Positions 9,576 through 60,500 of a stretch of DNA of 64,000 nt are shown here, in pieces. Position 1 is the first letter of the stretch; every line of letters begins with the position of its first letter. Position numbers and translations under genes: made by a program. Under the pieces are notes generated by a model, which was not told the origin of the DNA, did not search any database, and saw nothing but the letters and a program-made list of their open reading frames with translations. The DNA comes from Taiwanofungus camphoratus (Eukaryota; Basidiomycota; Agaricomycetes; Polyporales; Taiwanofungaceae), in contig CP021232.1 of assembly GCA_003999685.1 (NCBI GenBank), positions 806,001-870,000 of the forward strand, in the 5' to 3' direction.

Positions 9576-12500
9576 ATGTCCGACATAGAGGAAGATGCTA
9601 TTTTGAACAGCGGAGGCCTCCTCGAAGACAACGAGGAAGTAGGAGATCAAGAGCAGCGTGAAGAAAGCCCGCAGAAGAATCGGCGGCAAGACGATGATGA
9701 GGAAGAGGACGAAGACGAGGATGAGGAGGAAGATGAAGATGAGGAGGATGAAGATCCGGGTACTGAGAGAGGAAAGAAGAGAGCCAAGGTTTGTGTACGC
9801 TCTATGTTGAAAACTCCCGTCAATGCTCACACTCTTCACAGCACCGGCACAAACGTCCCGCAGTGAACCGCTTCCTCGATGTAGAGGCCGAGGTCGATGA
9901 AGATGAAGAGGAGGATGAGGATGAGGACGAGTTTGCACGTGGTAAGCTTGTCACTACTCTTCTCTGAAGATTTTCCCAATTTCCGATGTAGACGAGTTCA
10001 TCGCCGACGTTGGTGGCGAGGGCGAAGAAGACGTAGCCCGAAGAGCAGCGGACCATGCGCGGTTTGACAGGCGTGAGCGAGAACTTGACGACCAGGACCT
10101 TGCGAAGATCGCCGAAGATGTCAGTCAGCGTTACAGGCGGACGGCGGTGCGGTATTCAGGCGACATGAGCGACATTCCACAGCGGCTCCTTATGCCGTCG
10201 GTACACGATGCCAATTTGTGGCAGGTCCGCGTCAGAGTACGTGTGAAGATTCTTCTATTAGACTTGATACTCATGATAACATCCACAGCCTGGCAAGGAA
10301 CGCGATCTGGTTTTCAGCCTGATGCGGAAAGCCATTGACCTGGAGTACTCGAATCGACCCCTCCAAATCCTGTCCGCATTCCAGCGAGACTCGCTTCCGG
10401 GGATGATCTACGTAGAGGCTCGTAGTGCCAAGCAAGTGAATGAAGCTTGCCACGGATTAGTGGGGATCTACCCGAGCCGAGGGATTGTGCTGGTCCCAAT
10501 CGAGGAGATGGCGAGTCTACTGCAGATAAAGAAGCAGGACTTGACAGTGACGCCCGGGAGCTGGGTACGGATCAAACGGGGCAAGTATCAGGGTGATCTT
10601 GCGCAAGTGATGGACATCACGGAGAACGGGGAGGAGGTTGGCTTGAAGTTCATCCCGCGAATCGACTTGAATCCTAAGGATGATGCGGCGATCGATGGGA
10701 AGAAGCGGAAGAAGGCGGGGAGTGGGTTATCATCGTTCAGCATGCGCCCGCCCCAGCGCTTCTTCAACTACGAGGAAGCAGTGAAGGTGTACGGGCGCAA
10801 GGCAGTATCGAAGCGCAATCAGGTGTATGTGTTCCAGAACGACACGTACAAGGACGGCTTTATTGAAAAGGACTTCCGCCTGACCGCGCTTCAGTTGGAC
10901 AATGTGAACCCGACCTTGGACGAAATCACTCGGTTTACTCGAGGTCAGGACGGCACGGAGAACGAGTCCAGTGTGGACCTTTCTATCATCGCTGAAGCTT
11001 CGCGGAAAGCAGCAATCTCAGTATTACAACCCGGTGATCATGTTGAAGTCTTCGAAGGTGAACAGTCTGGAGTGCATGGGACTGTCCACTCCATCGAACA
11101 AGACATTGTCACAATCCAGCCTGTCGGAGTCGACTTTGATGGCCAGCGAATTCAAATACCCGCTAGAAGTCTCCGAAAGAGATTCAAGCCTGGAGATCAT
11201 GTCAAGGTAATGACTGGCAAGAACGCCGATGAGACTGGTCTGGTTGTCTCTGTTGTCGACAATGTGGTTACGTTCCTGTCGGATATGTCGATGCAAGAGG
11301 TATGTATCCAGACTTCATTTCAAACAAAAACGTTTTTCTGAAGGATGTCTTCAGGTTTCTGTGTTCTCAAAAGACTTGCGTGAAGCTGCCGAAGTTGGCA
11401 CGGGAACGAACGTCGTAGGAAATTACGAGTTGCATGATCTCGTTCAGCTCGAGTAAGTTAAATATTGATTACCGTTGATTTGCTCCGCTAATACACGTCA
11501 CAGTTTGCAGACGGTCGGCGTTATTTTTAAAACTGAAAGAGATTCGTTTCGCGTTTTGGATCAGAATGGCCAGGTACGGCTCGTTCAGCCACATCAGATC
11601 TCAATGCGGCGAGATTCGAACAGAGCTATTGCAACCGATTCTGAAGGGCACGAATTGCGTATCAACGACAATGTCAGAGAGGTCGATGGAGAGGTCTGTA
11701 ATATGTACTCCTCTTTTGACCTTGTAGATTCTGACACAAAACATACAGGGGCGAAAAGGACGGGTATTACACACCCACCAATCATTCTTCGCATTTCTGC
11801 ATAATCGTGACTACAATGAGAATAGCGGCGTTTTTGTCACTCGTGCCAGGTCTTTGGTGTCCCTAGCTCCAAAGGGAAACGTCATGAAACTTGGATCTGC
11901 GGATTTGTCAAAAATGAATCCTGCTCTCACTGGCGGAGCAATGGGCGGCATGGTCGGCTCTGGGAATATTGGTCGCGGTCCACGAGACCGATTGATCGGT
12001 GTCACGGTAGCGGTCATCAAAGGTCCTAGCAAGGGCTATGTTGGCACTATCAAGGATACCAATGGCCCAGTTGCTCGGGTTGAGTTATACACGTCGAACA
12101 AAGTGATCACTATCGACAAAGTGAAGTTGAAAAGGAGGCTGTGCGCGGCGTTTTGCTAATTTCCCAAGTTTTCAGCTCATGTATTTCTAGTGCTGACGGT
12201 ACTCTCGTGGAACTCGAAGGCAAATACGGCTCAATGGGTCCTCCAAGTACACCGAATTCCTTCAGTCAAGGTGGACGCACACCCGCATGGAACACAGGGG
12301 GCCGGACGCCGAATCCTTACAACGATGGTCGCACGCCCGCATGGACGGCCTCTTCACGTACACCGAATCCATATGCCGATGGGAAGACACCCGCCTGGAA
12401 TGCTTCAGCTCGTACACCGAATCCATATGCTCAAGATGGCGGGCGAACACCGGCATGGAACGTGTCCTCACGGACTCCTAATCCATACAACTCTGGCGCG

Positions 12501-13776: not shown

Positions 13777-16615
13777 TCAAGAAAACAAACTTTGGGTGAT
13801 TTTCCTTTTCCTCTTTTTCTTCCTCACAGACTGCCCGTCCTTGCATTGCTGAGCCTCCTGCTTCACGGTCTCCGCATTTCCTGCCGCTTCGGGATGCTCA
13901 TCTGCCTCGACTACCTCTACGGGTGCACCATCGACGGGCTCGACACTCTCTTCCTGATTCAACGGTAGAGCAACTTTTTCTTTCTTGGAGTGCTTTCGTT
14001 GTTTTGTTACTTTCGTACCTCTAGGGGTGGTCTCGGTGTCGTTATTTTCTCCAGAATTTTCCTCACCCATACCGCTTGCTTTCTTGGTACGCTTCGAAAT
14101 TGCAAGCTGGAGATCAGTGCTAGGGTTACCTGTAACAGATATTTCTGCGCCAGTTCGCCGCTTCCGCGGAGAAGCTTTCGCAAGCTTCGACGTGTCTGTT
14201 CCATTAGTGATATCCTCATCCTTGACCGCATCTGAATCTACGAGTCCAATGAGCTGAATGCGGCAATAAATCGCTAATAGTAGGAACGAACCGTCTAAGT
14301 CTCTTTTTCCTTTCGAGCCTGAGCGCGTTCGCATAATGGCTATACTAGCCTCCCCGTCTCCTTCCATGCCATCCTCTTCCTCGGCCTGGTCTTCACTGCG
14401 GTTCTTCCCGCGCACGAACGGCCGCGGGGGCTTCTCGGGACGGAGGTTCTCATGAATAACGGGCTCAAGGTCATATATCCTGTAAAGATGGAACACCGCC
14501 TGCTCCTTGTCCTTCGCCTGCGAAAAAAAATTAGCGTCCGAGTCGGTGCTGCCCAAAATTGGACTGCAGATAGCGATCCCAGGCATCCGTATCGAAAGCG
14601 GAAGTAGGTGTGGAGGGGGGTTGAAGAAAGAGCTCACTTCGATCATTAAGTCCATGTCTTCAGGCAGATCCACCGGCAGCTCGTGGCAGCGGTCGGCATG
14701 CGCGCGTTTCTCCATCACCGATTCTGCCCCGGGGCGGGGAGAGGAAAGGTGCTGCTTGGGCCTGATGCCCTTCTGCGTCCATGTTGCGGCGATGCGCGGG
14801 AGAAGCTCGGGAAGTGGATGCATACTCGGCTGAGAATAGAACCCACGACCAGTGATGGAATCGGTCCCAGAAATAACCAGATTCGGAGGGGGTTGGAGAA
14901 GGTCAGTAGGCTGATGCTGTTGTACGAAATACGTGACGTACATTAATCCAATCGTGGTGGTAGTCAAACTACGTTTTGAGTCGCAATTGTCTCATTGTTC
15001 CACATTCTACAGGGCTCAAAGATATGGACTCACTACGAGCGGGACGCCAAGTTCCTCGCAGACAGGCAGCAAGTCGTCTGCACTGTAACATATCTTCGCA
15101 AGCAATGCGCCCCTTTGAACGGACCACCTACGGAAGTTGCGAGGGACTCACCTCGTCGTTCTCGAGCACAAGCCGCGCACGCATCTCGTCTGTCAACCGC
15201 GTGCGGTAGTTCTCACGAAAGCGCTCGAGTGTCCCTGGCTTGTTGCCGTACACGCCCTGCAATCACCATGCGTCAGTTTCGATGGAAGAGTGGTGTGAAA
15301 GTGCGCCGCAGTGCATGTGTGAGAGTGTGAAGGGACTAGGGGTGGAAGGAGAGAAACCCATACCCCCATGTGAATGATGATCACGCTGTCCTGGTCGAGG
15401 CCCATGTATCGCATGAGCTGACAGTGGTCTGAACAAATACGGTCACAAACCGGCACTTAGGAAGGGAAGGGAAGGCGTACAATCCAGCTCGCGCACGGAC
15501 GCGGTGACGACATCGTCCTTTGGGGATGCGAGCTGAGTGAACTGAGCGCACCGATCGTCGAAGCACGGGAATAAATCAATGCAGAAAACGGGTATTGATT
15601 CTGACGAAACGCACCTGCCCCGGGTGCGAGGTGAGCCGGTGGCCGTAGCGCTTCGCTAGATCACCTGCTGCCTGCGAGTAGTTACGCTCGTCGGTAAAGG
15701 GGATCTGAGGAGGAATAGGCGCACCTTGAGCTCCTCTGCGGCGTACTCCAGCGAGTAGCCGTACGTCCCGTGTGAGGCGAAGGGGAACATCTCGGAGGAG
15801 AGGCGGAAGAATCGGACCCTGTTATCTTCGTTCCACTGTCAACTCGCGAGCCATCAGCTTTTGCGAGTCGCCACCACACAAATGCGGCAATACAACGAAA
15901 CAAGGACTCAGACACATGTTGGTTCGAGTAGTCGCGAGGTCAGACGTAGAGCGGGAAGAAGAGCCCACCTGGATGATCGTGAGCAGGTCTTTGCAGTTCT
16001 GGCGTCCGAGCTCCTTAGCGAAGTCGAGCCCGTTCTTACGAATTGTGTCGAGGCGGCAGGTGCGCGAACAGAAAACAGACTCGGATGCGGGCTTGCGTGC
16101 GCGGAGTATCGTGTTCAGGCATGCGTACCCAAGGCGACCTGCAGATGCCAAGTAGTTATACTCAATTGTGGACCGAATGCCGGAAAGAAGAACGTCAAGG
16201 CGAAATGAAGAGCGCCACGGAGCACTCAAGATATGCTAATCTGAACCATCGCCAAACTAGTAGAGAGTGACATACCCTTGAAATTTGTCGTCTTGCGTTC
16301 GACAGGCGGGATGTCATACACGACTGGTTCCGCGTCCTTCTTGCCCCTTCGCCTTTTAACGGTCGTCTCTGCCTTGCATGTCTCAGACTCAAGCTCTGTC
16401 AGGGGACTTTCATCTGCAACATTGGATATACTCTCTTCTGCATTTGAGAATCTTGATTCGGCGTCCACAGCCTTGTTCTTGGGTTGCTCATTGGCGGACC
16501 TTCGCTTACGGGGCGTGGTACCTGATGGATCCCGGACAGCGACTTCTGTCTCACGTATGATGGCTACAGCAGTGTGCCCCCTCTCTTCGGGGACAACGCG
16601 TTTCCTCTTAGCCAT
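13777..16615 (-). CDS. UVE1: UV-damage endonuclease UVE1 (UVDE)
   Basis: Nicks DNA immediately 5' of UV photoproducts and some other lesions, starting an alternative excision repair; acts in nucleus and, in some fungi, mitochondria. Twelve exons on the minus strand: 16615-16276, 16138-15969, 15835-15725, 15671-15615, 15541-15481, 15428-15364, 15256-15152, 15093-15034, 14968-14942, 14829-14638, 14517-14292, 14237-13777; 624 residues. After a basic, disordered N-terminus (KRKRVV, TPRKRRSANEQ) the TIM-barrel runs about residues 114-410: RLGYACLNTILR, FCSRTCRLDTIRKNGLDF, FRLSSEMFPFASH, RLTSHPGQFTQLASPKDD, IIIHMGG, LVLENDEICYSADDLLPVCE, DYHHDWIN, KQHLSSPRPG, RAHADRC and DMDLMIEAKDKEQAVFHLYR, holding the metal-ligand His, Asp and Glu residues. 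A long charged, basic tail follows. Exon 9 is 27 nt. The last intron (14238-14291) is 54 nt and stop-free. Confidence 0.94.
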
Positions 16616-44141: not shown

Positions 44142-47100
44142 ATGCTTATACCACTCGCATATTTATTCATGGGTGCCATGACCCTCCTGGGGGCATGGCA
44201 CACCGCTACCTTCTCCGTCCTCACCGACGTCCGCTGGCCGGCACTTGTCCATGTCGTGTCCCCCTTCGGCGCTATGCTGAGCAGCCTCGCCGTGGGGTTC
44301 GGGTATGTCTGTTTTATTTTCTAGTACCTTTTCCTTCGTCTTAGTGCACCGTTGTAGCATTCCCCGCTCCGACGTCATGACCCCCTTCGATGCCGACATG
44401 GCTTTGCCAGTCGTGCTCACCCTCCCTGACGTGCTCGACAGCCTGCACAACGTCTCCCAGGCGGCCGGCTGGGAGCTGGTCGTGTACGGGCCCGCGATGT
44501 GTTCCGACCTTATCGTCAGGCCATCGTCTGCGCTTGTGCCTGTCGCGACCGTACCTCCGAAGCCGACGCCAACGCCGACGCCGACTTTGACACAGGCCTT
44601 CGCTTCTGCGGCAGGCTCTGCACCTCCGCGCTTCGAGAACGTCCGGCCTATGGCAAGCTTCGTGCCGCCTCCCGATGTCGTCATGTGGTGGTGCACCGTC
44701 GTGCTGGCCCTCATCATCGTGGTCTCCATCCAGGCGCTGGTGTCGTTCACCACGTACAAGTTCCTCGTCACGTACGTCATCAAGGATCGCCACGCCCGCC
44801 CGCCGCGTCCGCCCCGGCCTGTGCAGCAGACCGTGTTGTGCTTCACGCTCCCGGTACGTTGACAGTTTGTCCATACATGCCGTGTCCTGACGTCGTCCGC
44901 CCAGTCGCGCCGGCCCCAGCTGAAGCCGTCGCTTGCCGCGCACGCGTTCGTACGGGCCAAGTGGCGGATTGTCGAGAGCGGGGCGATGTTTGTAGATTAC
45001 ACGCTGTCGGTAGCCATGTATACGGAGCCTGCCCCCGTTGTCACGTCGTTCCTGGACTTCCTCGCGGCCGCCCCCATCAAGATTGGCTACACCGTCAAGG
45101 ACACGCTCGACGAGGACCTCGCCCTCGCCGCGCTGAGCAAGTCGGTCCCCCTCGCCGTGCCCGTGCCCGGCAACGACTCGCACCTCGGTGTTGCGAATGC
45201 TGCTGACTCGGGTACCCCGGCCTCCGACACCTCGGACGCGGTTAACAGTGCGACCTCGGCTCCTCTGGTCGACACGACTCCCGTGACTCCTCCGGTCGAC
45301 ACGGCTCCCGCGGCTCCTCCGGTCGACACGACCCCCGCGATTCCTCCGGTCGAGAGCATAGTGTCAGCCGTGGCAACAAGGACCGAGGGCCCGATGATGA
45401 CCGCAGCAGGAACCGACGACGCGATGCCGACCGTGGAAGGAGCCACAGCCTCGGTTTCAACCATGACAGGAACCGAGGGTATGATATTGATTGGGGCAGG
45501 TGTCGAGAGTGTGAGGTCGACCGTCGCAGAAACTGAGGGCTCGATGTCGACTGCGTCAGGAATCGAGGGCGTAGCGTCGATCCCTGCTGCCCCTGTCGAC
45601 ACGACGCCCGCAGCTCCTGCCAAGGTCGACTTGGAGCCTGCTACTTCCGCCTCGGTAAACGCTGAGCCTTTGGTTTCTACCACAGCTAATACCACGCCGT
45701 CGGTTCCTGCTAACACTGTCGACGTCGAGCCTGCATCTCCTACTGTGAGAGACTTTGTGCCCACCATGGTTGACTTCGAATATGTGATTCCTGCGACGAC
45801 CGACATTGAACACTCAACTCCTGCGGCGGGTGACATCGTGCCCTCAGGAAGTGCTTCTGCGATCGATACTCCACCCTTGGTTCCTGCCGTGGTTGAAATT
45901 GAGGTCGCGGTTCCCACCGCTGTCGACAACGAGCCTGCATCTCCAACTGCCATCGACATTGCACCGGCGGCACCCGCTGCGGTCGACTGCGAGCCCGCGC
46001 TTTCTGCGACGATCGACATTGAACCTTCGGCGGCGGCGGTGGTGGCGGGAGACATTGTGCCCTTGGAAACTCCTTCTATGGCAGACGTTGAACCTACGGC
46101 CCCTGTTACGATCGACATTGATCCCTCCGTTTCTGCAACGGGAGGCATCGCGCCCTTGGAAACTACTACGCCCTCGGAACCTGCTACCGCGGCCGACATT
46201 GAGCCCGCGGCTGCTGGCAAGGTCGACTCCACCCCCTCAGACCCTACCACAGTTGACTTCGACTTTGCACCCTCAGAGCCTAGTACTGCGGCCGACATTG
46301 AGCCCGTGGCTGATACCATGGTCGACATTGAGTCCTCAGAGCCTGCTGTCACAGTTGACTTTGAGCCCACAGCTCTTGCGACGATCGACACTGAACCCTC
46401 AGTGCCTGTGGCGGGAGACATCGCGCCTTCAGCCCTTGAAACAGTGGACATCGTGTCCTTAGAACCTGCTATCACAGTTGACTTTGAACACGCGGCTCCT
46501 GTGCTGATCGACTGTGAGCCCTCAGTTGCGGTGGGAGACATTGCGCCCTCACTCCTTGCAACTGTAGACATCGGGCCCGCAACTCCTACCACGACTGATG
46601 TCGTGCCCGCGGCCGACACGGTTGACACTGCGCCGTTGGATCCCATCCCAATTGATACCACTCCCTCGGTTCCTTTCGCGGTCGGATTCGAGCTCGCAGC
46701 TTCTACCATGGTTGACGTGGTCGACATTGCGCCCGCCACGGTCGACTCCGAGCCCACAGCTCCTGTGGCCGGTGACCAGCAGTTCCAAGATGATGCTGCA
46801 GCCCCTGCGATGGCCGAGACCGCTGTGCTAGGTCCCAGTGCCGATGTCGTTTCCCTTTCTGACTCCGTGGCCACTCCACAGCCTCACGAGACTTCCTGCG
46901 TCATAGAGATGGCCTCTGCCGTCGATACCCCCGTAGTCGATACTCCCGCCGATAGTGGTTCCACGCTCTCAGACGATGTTGTCATCAGTGATGCCCTTGT
47001 CGACGAGTCTCACGTAGTCCAAGCTTCCATCGTTGACTGCCTTGCCATCGGACTCGAAGCTCTCATCTCCACCGTTAACGCCCTCGCTACGGATGTTCCC

Positions 47101-48400
47101 GGCACCGAAGACCAGCTTGCTGAAATTGCGGCCATCCTAGATGCCACCGACGCCGCTGTTGATGACAGTCCGCACCAAGGTGTTGCGGACGTCGTTGATG
47201 ATGCGAACGTTACGGTATCTGGGTCTGCTGTTACAATCGAAGAGCCCGCGGACAGTGGTTCATCGAGTGGGTCTGCGTCTGACGCTGTTACTGGTGCACC
47301 AGGTGGACAGGCGGTGAATAGTGGTATGTTGTATACGTCTGCTCCGGAGGCTGTTGCTAATGCTCTAGCTATAGGCAATGCCGATAGTAGTCCCCCTAAT
47401 ACGACCACGAGGAACAACAAACGAGGTGGCAAGAAATTCCAGGATCGAAAGAGGAAAGGCAGATTCATGGAGGCCATGCACAATGCAGAGCGTTTCAGGT
47501 GGGAGCTTCCATTTGCGGGTTCGGATCTCCTCTACCCGTGGTGGAAGGTTCTTGAGGAATTGTACTTCAAGTACTACATTCATGCCGTATGTCCTCGTAG
47601 TACTTCACCGTGATTTCGCTGCTCACGCGACACATGCTAGATCATCGATCATGAAGAGGTATGTTCTCGTATTTAACTATCATCCGAACGCTCACAGTCT
47701 TGTCAGAGGGCGGAGCATCGCGAACCATTCAACATGGCGAAAGAAATGGATAACTTGGTCGCGAGGATGGAACGTCTGACTCTCAGCGAGGTGAGCGGCC
47801 TTGTTTTGTGCTCGCGATCAAACTCTGAACTGGACTTTGAATCACTTACAGGTCCCCCCGGATGAGACCGCGGCATGCCAAGATCAAGCTGTGGAGTCTT
47901 TTACTGAATCCTCTTTGAACGATGCCCAGACAGCAGCATCTGAGTTGCCAACGGCGCCCCAGTCTTCCACGGACCCTCAGTCGTCTACGGCTCAGGCTGA
48001 GTCCTCAACCGAGGCCATCTCAGTTGCACCCGAGGTACCGCGCACACGTCCCCGACTGGCTGTGGGGGCGCTCCTGTCCATCCGCGCGCTCGTCGACCCC
48101 GCCAGCCAGCGAAGCCGTCGCGCTGCCCCCCAGGTAAGTAATACTAGTTAGAGTTACTGTCGTGTGCTGATCCTGCAATAGTAGGCTTCGACTAAGACGT
48201 CTGAAGACGCGTCTGGGTCGTCCGCACCTTCCACCTCGTCGGAGACGGCGTCAAGCACCTCCTCCGTACACACATCATCTCCTCCGCCGCGTCCCGAAGA
48301 CTCGCGCCTCACAGGGGGTGAGAGTGGGCCGTCTTCGCAAGCGGTCGCCGAAGATGTAGGGATTGCGGCTGGGACGACTCCTAAGCAAGATATGCAATAA
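44142..48400 (+). CDS. Unknown membrane protein with long Asp/Glu/Pro/Ala repeat region
   Basis: Not a family I recognise. Exons: 44142-44302, 44358-44853, 44905-47323, 47375-47586, 47641-47658 (18 nt), 47707-47790, 47852-48133, 48185-48400; 1295 residues, all phases consistent. N-terminal hydrophobic spans occur at about residues 3-20 (IPLAYLFMGAMTLLGAW) and 38-54, a Pro/Thr spacer (PPKPTPTPTPTLTQ) at about 110-125, then a strong span near 160-185 (VMWWCTVVLALIIVVSIQAL). A conserved-looking stretch follows (SLAAHAFVRAKWRIVESGAM, FLDFLAAAPIKIGYTVKDTL). Residues about 340-850 are degenerate units of 9-13 residues with core (V/I)D(I/F)EPSxPA(T/V). After it a Lys/Arg-rich patch (NKRGGKKFQDRKRKGR) and a Ser-rich tail end in GTTPKQDMQ. 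The intron 47324-47374 is 51 nt and stop-free, so it may be read through. Confidence 0.7.
45255..46790 (+). repeat. Coding repeat array (about 30-nt degenerate units)
   Basis: Within exon 3, units of roughly 27-39 nt recur, with conserved GTCGACATTGAGCCC-like cores (encoding VDIEP). The first part (45255-45350) has a distinct, more regular 33-nt unit CTCCTCCGGTCGACACG.... The segment 45355-45585 carries the same cores on the opposite strand. Confidence 0.85.
45355..45585 (-). repeat. Inverted segment of the coding repeat array
   Basis: On the plus strand this stretch encodes an atypical Thr/Glu/Gly/Met-rich sequence (for example TMTGTEGMILIGAGVES). Its reverse complement encodes the canonical array core (DAVDIEPSVSATVDL, IIPSVPVMVE). 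Flanks on both sides are in the normal orientation. Both strands lack stops throughout. Confidence 0.75.
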
Positions 48401-57537: not shown

Positions 57538-60500
57538 CTATTGTCCGTACCCGTGTGAATGAAAATACGAACCATATTGCTGCTGTTGCTGAGGTAAGGG
57601 GTTCTGATATTGATATGTATTCCGCTGTTGTTGCGGAGAGGATGGGGATAGCGGAGATGAGCCGTACTGCGGTTGATATGAGACTGGAGGTGGAGGCGGA
57701 GGAAATGGTGAGTTGGCCGCTGCAGATGGTGGTTGGTACGCCGACGAATACGGAGGTTGCGAGGGTGGGGGAGGAGGAAGCGACCCCTGGGGTGGTAGCT
57801 GAGAGTACGGGGTCTGGTGACTAAGTGACGGGTACGATGACTGCAGCTGTTGCGACTGTTGCCCATAGGACGGTTGCTGAGGATGCTGAGGAGGGCGAGT
57901 AGAAGGGACCGAATTGGGGCTTGAGGCAGAATTAGATAAGGAGGAAGCTCCGCCTATGCTGCTGCCAAACATGTTCAGAGAGGCATAAGGGTCAGAGGGA
58001 GGTGCAGACGGTTGGAAAGAAGGTTGAGAAACGGGACCACTTGGAGGAGACGGAAAGTACGGTGTTCCAGATGGCTGAGAGGGTAATGGAGGATATTGCT
58101 GAGAGGGAGCAGAAGCAGGCGCCCAGGGACTCTGACTTGACGGTGGTGGTGGCGATGTTAGGCCTTTGGGGCCATGAAGGTTCATGGAAGCAAAGGAGCT
58201 GTCGAGTCCTGCGGGTAGCGTCGATCCATGAGGTGGTCTAGGCAGCGGTGGCGGGGGGACGCGCGGTTTCTCTGCGAGAGGTGGTGGAGAGGTAGCTGAA
58301 GCTGAAAGCCTGCGCTGAGCTTCTGCTTGGGATGCTAGCATCTCACGCTCCACAGTCCGTTCGGCTACGAAAGACTTCACGTTACGTCTCAGAACAGTGG
58401 TTAGCTCCGTGAGTTCGTTGTAAAATTGCAAACCCTTTCTGTTCGTAAAGTTTTGAGTTACAAGCAGTGACTTCAGTGGTGGAAGAACAGAAGATACGCA
58501 CGCAAGACCATCTCTCACTTCCATGTAGCCGTCCCTAGCGCGCGAGAACCGACGAATAGTGTCCTTTTTCCGCCGTTCCCTCTCCTCCCATTGTTTTGCA
58601 CCTGGTCCGCGGCCTGCGAGGTCCTTCAATCCACGCCAAAGAGTAGAGACTTCTTGCAGTGTGACCTGCTCTGCGTGTACAGTGGCTGTTAAGCGTTGCT
58701 GATACGGCCGGAACTTTTCGAGCTCTCCCGCGAACAGACTACTTTCAACTCCTGTGTTTCTGCGATTAAGAAGGAGCAAATGGGAGACATCATCCGATTG
58801 AACCTAGTGATAGCCGATACGTCAGTTCGATAATACTCGCGGACTGAAATTTGAAGACTGATGGTACCTTATCCTTCAGATCCTTTAAGACTTGGCCCCT
58901 TTCATGCCCGATCTTGTTCAACCTGCCCAGGCGCTCTTCGATTTCGTCAACAAATTGCGCGATCTTCCTGCGCTCTTCTTCATCTTTCATTTCGCTTGTG
59001 ACATCGAGGTCTAGTAAATTCTCTGAGCCTGCACCCCCCTTCTCCGTACTTGCCCTGAACACTTCCTCTACCTGTGCGGAGAGGAGCAATCGGATCTCGG
59101 CCTTGACCAAATCCCACAGGGCTGCTACCTGCTGGTCGGACTGCGACGCTGCCTCCAGAGCACTGAAATGCGATTTCAGATCTTGCCGTAATGTCTTCGT
59201 AAGCGAGGCTGAGGGTTCTTGATTCCACAGATGGTCATACTTTACCCGCATAGCCTCACACTCCTTGCTCTCAACCTCTAAATCCCTGCTGATTCCCTCC
59301 AGCTCGCCCTTGACATCACCTTTGAGCCTGTTCAACTGGGCCATAATGCTTTCAACCCCCTCCCTCTCCTCCATTACTCCGATATCTTCTCGCCACCGTC
59401 GTACCTCTACAGGTACTTCCTCCTCGCCGCCGACCCCTCCTTCAGCCATGGCTTTGAATCGCACCAGACCCTGCTTGACACCCATCGACTCCAAGGCGCT
59501 CTTCACCTCCACATCCGCATTGTCCGCGTTCTCCACCTCGGCACGCACGAGCTTGGCCTTCTCTTCGGAATATACACTAGCACTTTCGTGCACGCTCAAC
59601 GGGATCAGTCGCACGAATAGGTCCGGTCCGATCACTTTCTGCACATCAGGTGTGGCGTACACCTCCTGGATTGTCACTGGCGTTGCAACGGCTGCCTTGT
59701 CAATCTGCGGTAGGGTTTCGGGAGTAGGTAGCACGGAGTTGTATATAAGGTCATTCTCCCTCTGAGCCTCATTCTTCTTCTCCGTACACAGAGCTAGGTG
59801 CGCTTTAGTCAGATCCATAAGAGTGGGGCCCGCATCTGGAGGTAAATTAGGTGACATTTGGGTCACAAAGATAGAGGCGAAGGAGGATGCAGAACGATTC
59901 GCCTCCTTGGCAGCGGTTTCCGCGGCTGTGAAGCGAACGAGAGCATCCCCATGTTTACCAGCAGCATCGTCTGCCAGTGCTCGGTAGTATTGGGCCATAG
60001 ATGTGAAGTACTTGGCCTTCGACTACAACCAATCAGCGGATAGAATTGCCGTTAGTCAGAATATAGTACACACCTGGATGACGGTGACCCAGTTGCGGTC
60101 GAAAATTCCCTTCCCCATGAATTCCTTCACTTCCTCACTGAGAGAGGTGTACATGAAGGCCGTTTGGGAGGCAATCTTAGAAATCAGCGCGTTTCCCTTC
60201 CTCTCATCGGTGCATTTCTCAAAGAATACCTCCGTTGCTTGTGCCAATATGATCCCCACTAGGAACTTGATCACCTCGCGGCTTAAGTCAGTCGATGGAG
60301 CGTGCAGGAAGTTGTCATTGATGTACGTGAGCATCCCCACACAAGTACGGAAATAATAGAATGCACGTTTGAGGCCCTCGGGATCGGATCGGTTCTGTGA
60401 TGCAGCGATTGCAGAGTGGGTCGCCGCAATCTGAAAGATGACAGACGCCTTCTCATATGCTATGGACGTCTGAGTAATGAGCTTATTCGTGAATGCATCT

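Follow-up and report, generated by a model that had tools for sequence, protein, structure and literature searches.

Coding minisatellites that vary in copy number are found in fungal repeat proteins, and all units of such an array normally share one head-to-tail orientation. In bacteria, intragenic invertons, in which an inversion within a reading frame alters the protein, were reportedly described by Chanin et al. (Nature, 2024), and within a population these elements are said to change orientation reversibly, with inverted repeats at their ends. For Saccharomyces cerevisiae, the cited part of a study on inverted-repeat spacers gives ten inversions with 2-5 substituted bp, at most two changed residues and arms of more than 9 bp, some of which flip repeatedly (PMC8604942). 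For great apes, the cited part of a survey of template switches gives a copied fragment with a median of 12 and a maximum of 128 for the "gold-standard" events, 5.5% of which leave length unchanged, with events depleted in coding regions (PMC7954356).

Here, a window of 64,000 nucleotides from Taiwanofungus camphoratus (contig C13 of a 33.2-Mb assembly in 15 contigs, C13:806001-870000) was analysed, and positions are given as those of the window unless stated otherwise. Within a long coding tandem array of this window, one block of units runs opposite to the rest, and a single historical inversion of ~231 bp inside the array, tolerated and then inherited, is very probably its origin. With one orientation in three of three copies, the block has the appearance of an ancient, fixed change rather than of a working switch. 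Among the matches listed in the literature (titles and abstract openings, with subscription literature largely outside the scope), no report of a coding tandem array containing an inverted block was found.

Table 1 Features of the repeat-array gene and its inverted segment, in window coordinates.
Feature	Position	Strand	Description	Basis
Repeat-array membrane-protein gene	44142-48400	+	1315 aa predicted	Splice-site and frame model
Seven modelled exons of the gene	44142-44302, 44358-44853, 44905-47586, 47641-47658, 47698-47790, 47852-48133, 48185-48400	+		Splice-site and frame model
Coding tandem array	45205-46779	+	Residues 320-844	Repeat families and cyclic unit model
Antisense open frame over array	about 45087-46883	-	~595-598 codons, stop to stop; by-product, not a proposed gene	
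Inverted segment	45350-45580	-	~231 bp, ~7.7 units; ends approximate	Strand scan with shuffles, reversion scan
Imperfect inverted repeat, left arm	45323-45345	+	23 nt, 83%; last forward unit	
Imperfect inverted repeat, right arm	45558-45580	-	Reversed unit, pairs with 45323-45345	
Two-unit stretch absent from paralogue	45475-45534	+	60 bp, in frame, inside inverted segment	Alignment

The strongest hydrophobic helix of the predicted protein comprises residues 166-184 (mean hydropathy 2.58) and is followed by three K/R within the next 15 residues, with further K/R beyond. Because these residues follow the strongest helix, the positive-inside rule suggests that the array is on the cytosolic side of the membrane, a prediction that disfavours the "surface" sequence assumed in a preliminary description of this DNA. 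The helix count is uncertain, since weaker hydrophobic stretches (hydropathy 1.65-1.73) exist at residues 1-19, 35-53 and 923-946. Searches of Pfam with four exon translations returned no family above its cut-off; DUF975, considered as the family of the protein, reached 13.1 bits against a cut-off of 34.8 and was rejected. A protein search with the N-terminal 330 residues returned the relative P0001, "hypothetical protein AcV5_009629 [Taiwanofungus camphoratus]" of strain V5, with 93% identity over that part. P0001 is a cluster of three member sequences, one of which was compared, and no relatives outside this cluster were found among 5.8 billion proteins; in each search, scoring covered the ~8,000 candidates with the most words in common, and distant relatives may therefore escape. 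Of two further queries, one gave P0001 alone and the other, whose length limit excluded proteins as long as P0001, returned none, and a counterpart of the window copy itself in another strain was not found in the protein searches. Judged from these searches, the gene possibly represents an orphan family with its sole cluster from the same fungus. The cited part of the genome paper on this fungus lists four monokaryon genomes, W1, W2, V5 and V7, the locus tag AcV5 being that of V5, and has "14 nuclear chromosomes" as a section heading (PMC8865532). Elsewhere in the window are SPT5 elongation factor domains, a UvdE endonuclease match and BRO1/ALIX-like ORFs (10322-11338 +, 13780-14967 -, 57541-59998 -), and four of the eight window ORFs tested against Pfam were without match.

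The array is built of units of ~9-10 aa (27-30 bp) of the type V-D-I-E-P-S-x-P-A-T. The inverted segment, which sits in exon 3, agrees with the surrounding array only as reverse complement. Its plus-strand translation is VESIVSAVATRTEG...GIEGVAS, and its antisense reading, DATPSIPDA VDIEPSVSAT VDLTLSTPAP INIIPSVPVM..., has the array's own period. The inverted reading consists mainly of Thr (16%), Ala (14%), Gly (13%), Ser (13%) and Glu (11%), and the right-hand array of Ala (17%), Pro (15%), Val (13%) and Thr (12%). For a strand scan, 45100-46929 was covered by sixty 60-bp scan windows, each matched to the forward array in either orientation and flagged when more than 5 points better reversed. 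Six of the sixty were flagged, all within 45370-45579, with scores of 29-40 as reverse complement versus 14-20 on the same strand; the boundary scan windows were tied (24/23 at 45340-45399 and 28/26 at 45550-45609), and the remaining 52 gave no flag. Taken as one piece, the segment scored 45 as reverse complement versus 12 forward. The maximum was 21 in 300 codon shuffles (mean 14.2, sd 2.1) and 18 in 300 dinucleotide shuffles (mean 12.4), and for seven further array pieces of 231 bp the scores were 37-56 in the forward orientation but only 10-12 in reverse.

Moreover, the region was scored before and after flipping with a cyclic unit model of ten states that had the forward array as its training set, and the score rose from 62.9 unflipped to 119.3 with 45350-45580 flipped and to 124.6 at best. 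A junction score by local alignments (unflipped 78, best 88) was uninformative, as flanks alone could score, and was given up for the cyclic unit model. Breakpoints were scanned over 961 pairs, with each end moved by ± ~15 bp only. Stops arose in 1 of the 321 pairs with L+R divisible by 3, in 8 of 320 pairs of the second register, whose best score was only 43.1, and in all 320 pairs of the third. Because the gain in score is confined to one register and stops arise elsewhere, the flip is real and its register is fixed. Its ends are not exactly resolved, the best 15 of the 961 pairs being spread over 45336-45362 on the left and 45571-45582 on the right. TCGA palindromes lie at 45350-45353 and 45577-45580, and a flip between them restores units (PPVDATPSIPDAVDIEP ... 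ADTMLSIPAAPVDTTP). As exact breakpoints, however, this microhomology pair (45350/45580) ranks 98 of 961 (119.3 versus 124.6 for the best) and was rejected, being kept as one candidate; with an earlier version of the model it was outside the top 20.

Together, the strand scan, the register stops and the reversion scan reveal a reverse-complement relation in place with an open reading frame. The core of the preliminary description is thereby confirmed, namely that the segment matches the flanking array only in reverse complement (45 versus 12, 6/60 scan windows, shuffle maxima 21/18), that its antisense reading gives canonical units (VDIEPSVSAT and others, with the array's period), that both strands are open across the array (minus frame 46883-45090, 598 codons), and that a ~230-bp flip altered the peptide with the frame intact (62.9 to 119-125 on reversion, in one register only). 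The ends then proposed, 45355-45585, were right in location and ~5 bp off the preferred ones, which are themselves approximate.

Arms of the yeast type (more than 9 bp) were not found at the segment ends, where the best flanking pair is the 23-nt imperfect inverted repeat at 83% (Table 1), with a longest perfect run of 8 nt; between the end zones (45320-45370 versus 45555-45610), perfect inverted matches likewise reach 8 nt at most. The imperfect repeat is a possible substrate for a re-flip, and the arms may have decayed since the event, because it is old.

The register in which the segment was inverted is free of antisense stops across the array (45205-46779), versus 13 and 19 stops in the other two registers, and the array of a paralogue described below has 0 (395 codons) versus 7 and 19. 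In this register third codon positions face third codon positions, so that stops arise only from Tyr codons after T or C, or from His/Gln codons after T, and Tyr/His/Gln make up 1.0% of the right-hand array. When the codons of the forward array (447 codons) were shuffled 2000 times, the used register contained 1.5 stops on average, and 12.9% of the shuffles were without any. The antisense openness is thus mostly a matter of composition, with few Tyr, His or Gln codons, and since this register is stop-free, an inversion in it could be tolerated. The array is also low in complexity, with 29 copies of the palindrome TCGA, and a 123-bp higher-order repeat is present at 46324-46573, overlapping an indel between the paralogues (46284-46586).

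In simulations, 231-bp inversions of the right-hand array stayed open in 41% of cases; for four further ORFs in the window, the values were 6.2, 17.0, 4.7 and 12.3%. Within the same gene, 65.2% stayed open in exon 2, 32.7% in the short pre-array part of exon 3 and 15.8% in the rest of exon 3. For inversions of 60-270 bp in the right-hand array, 3037 of 6000 stayed open, including 1990 of the 2015 in the used register. The array is therefore tolerant of inversion, as had been proposed and as its 41% versus 4.7-17% in the four other ORFs bears out, but not uniquely so, because exon 2 stays open more often (65.2%).

A paralogue of the gene was found on the opposite strand at ~C13:932.1-936.0 kb, ~78 kb beyond the window gene. 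In the alignment it has the same segment orientation and the same junctions, and 5 of the 20 scan windows printed for it prefer the reverse strand, all wholly or mostly within the segment. Indels between the paralogues inside the array are of 27, 60, 3, 303 and 9 bp, all five multiples of three, and the inverted block itself differs by 60 bp in frame, like an ordinary coding repeat. The 303 bp at 46284-46586 are present in the window gene and absent from both the paralogue and the V5 protein. A 1-bp indel is located at 48360, within the final exon of the model, in which the copies have different C-termini. The divergence between the paralogues reaches 26-27% in the outer flanks (upstream 66/253, downstream 53/194 sites), compared with 11.2% (100/893) in the right-hand array and 8.2% (14/171) in the inverted segment. 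It is low in the introns (3/260), near-upstream sequence (2/161), pre-array exon 3 (3/300) and exon 1 (4/161), and higher in exon 2 (37/496), the rest of exon 3 (77/807) and exon 6 (25/282). Two runs are identical, 44752-45157 (406 bp) and 47539-47756 (218 bp), suggesting gene conversion, and the mosaic of divergence likely reflects patchy conversion of this kind. Judged from the alignment, the flip is older than the last exchange of the paralogues at this site; it is not provably older than the duplication, because gene conversion could have copied the flip from one paralogue to the other.

The V5 protein corresponds to the paralogue rather than to the window gene, with 97% identity to the former over residues 1-966, and its residues in the inverted part are identical to those of the paralogue. 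Introns 1 to 6 of the gene model agree with this protein, which differs from the model in an exon 5 acceptor 9 nt downstream, in the lack of 17 consecutive residues behind the array and in its C-terminus. The segment thus has the same orientation in all three copies (window gene, paralogue and V5 protein), which lends no support to the rapid or ongoing variation envisaged in the preliminary description. As no copy in the ancestral orientation was found among these three (both loci in this genome and a single protein from a second strain), the order of events, with the array preceding the flip, is deduced from the orientation of most units and the restored periodicity. Between the paralogues, dN/dS of the inverted segment is 0.60 (57 codons, with 15 changes, too few to show selection either way), and its antisense reading has 4 synonymous and 10 non-synonymous changes (56 codons), giving no contrast.

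An inversion in place is one way to produce such a block. The reversed block may instead have been copied in by a polymerase that switched to the opposite strand elsewhere in the array, of the sister or of the paralogous copy, the reverse-complement units replacing forward ones or adding to them, which we consider unlikely. Template-switch copying of reverse-complement fragments in great apes (PMC7954356) and template-switch inversion of spacers in yeast genes (PMC8604942) are documented in the cited parts of these studies, and donors are available here, with reverse matches to the array of 66 and 48 nt at 71%, 33 nt at 73% and 20 nt at 85%. However, none of them has the look of a long recent donor, since matches of at least 30 nt reach only 71-73% and the closer ones (83-88%) span just 16-23 nt, whereas a single flip in place, with nothing gained or lost, makes the units nearly continuous at either end. 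An unrelated independent domain, or a chance antisense similarity from shared composition, would be conceivable in a low-complexity array with 29 TCGA palindromes, but has practically no probability given a score of 45 versus maxima of 21 and 18 (300 shuffles each) and seven other array pieces that are unlike the array in reverse (10-12). Repeats are hard to assemble, and a flipped contig piece would look alike; yet the same junctions occur at two loci that are 8% apart in the segment, and the protein annotated from another strain agrees, so that an assembly artefact is hardly credible.

Another reading makes the segment an active coding switch that flips to and fro and yields two protein forms. 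In its favour are the 23-nt arms (83%), which enclose the greater part of the segment, and the good tolerance of the array to inversion in one register, but a single orientation in 3/3 copies and perfect inverted matches of at most 8 nt between the end zones make such a switch exceedingly improbable. By inspection, a re-flip via the 23-nt arms would moreover leave one unit reversed, and the array, predicted to be cytosolic, is probably not at the cell surface. A more general conjecture, which we consider very unlikely, is that some repeat arrays keep an antisense register open and that in them the inversion of unit blocks is a recurrent, frame-safe source of new protein sequence, reversible in principle via inverted arms that the initial flip creates, the present array being a captured state of a slow two-state element.

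For the favoured single inversion, the following course is proposed. The event would predate the last exchange of the paralogues at the site and the split of strain V5 from this genome. The mutation step may have been a template switch during replication or a joining at short inverted matches of units, and both fit. An inversion leaves length unchanged, so the downstream frame was kept, and the event would have hit the sole antisense register that is stop-free across the array. In that register the genetic code roughly exchanges V with T, P with G and D/E with S and leaves A as A, so that ~77 residues of an acidic, Pro-rich repeat would have become a Thr/Ser/Gly/Glu-rich repeat of similarly low complexity. 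The altered linker was probably tolerated and may then have been fixed by drift or weak selection. We infer the mutation mechanism, the disorder of the linker and neutrality, and likewise, from three copies, fixation in the species.

The locus offers a readable case in which ~77 residues were replaced at once by their antisense counterpart and the protein survived. The permitting conditions are a length-neutral event, a composition poor in Tyr, His and Gln, and the third-to-third codon register. Further cases may be searched for by scanning coding arrays for blocks of units on the reverse strand, with the caution that such reversed blocks could be mistaken for separate domains. A ~231-bp inversion retained in two paralogues is of interest beside the smaller events given in the cited parts of the yeast and great-ape studies (PMC8604942, PMC7954356).

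In comparison with known systems, the array resembles fungal coding minisatellites in the in-frame gain or loss of units (27, 60 and 303 bp between the paralogues) and differs from them in that one block runs the opposite way. With the bacterial intragenic invertons the segment has in common that an inversion within a reading frame alters the protein; unlike them, it belongs to a fungus, has one orientation in three copies and is without sharp inverted repeats. Like the great-ape template-switch events, as far as the cited part of that study describes them, it is a reverse-complement copy of neighbouring sequence, but those events are smaller (PMC7954356). With the yeast spacer inversions it shares, on the cited part of that work, the exchange of a coding stretch for its reverse complement, which changes residues but preserves the frame, no adaptive explanation being needed (PMC8604942). 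In contrast to these very short spacers (2-5 bp changed), the segment covers ~231 bp and ~77 residues, with perfect end matches of at most 8 nt and no re-flip in three copies. The segment exemplifies a known type of mutation at large size and in a good state of preservation, in a low-complexity array.
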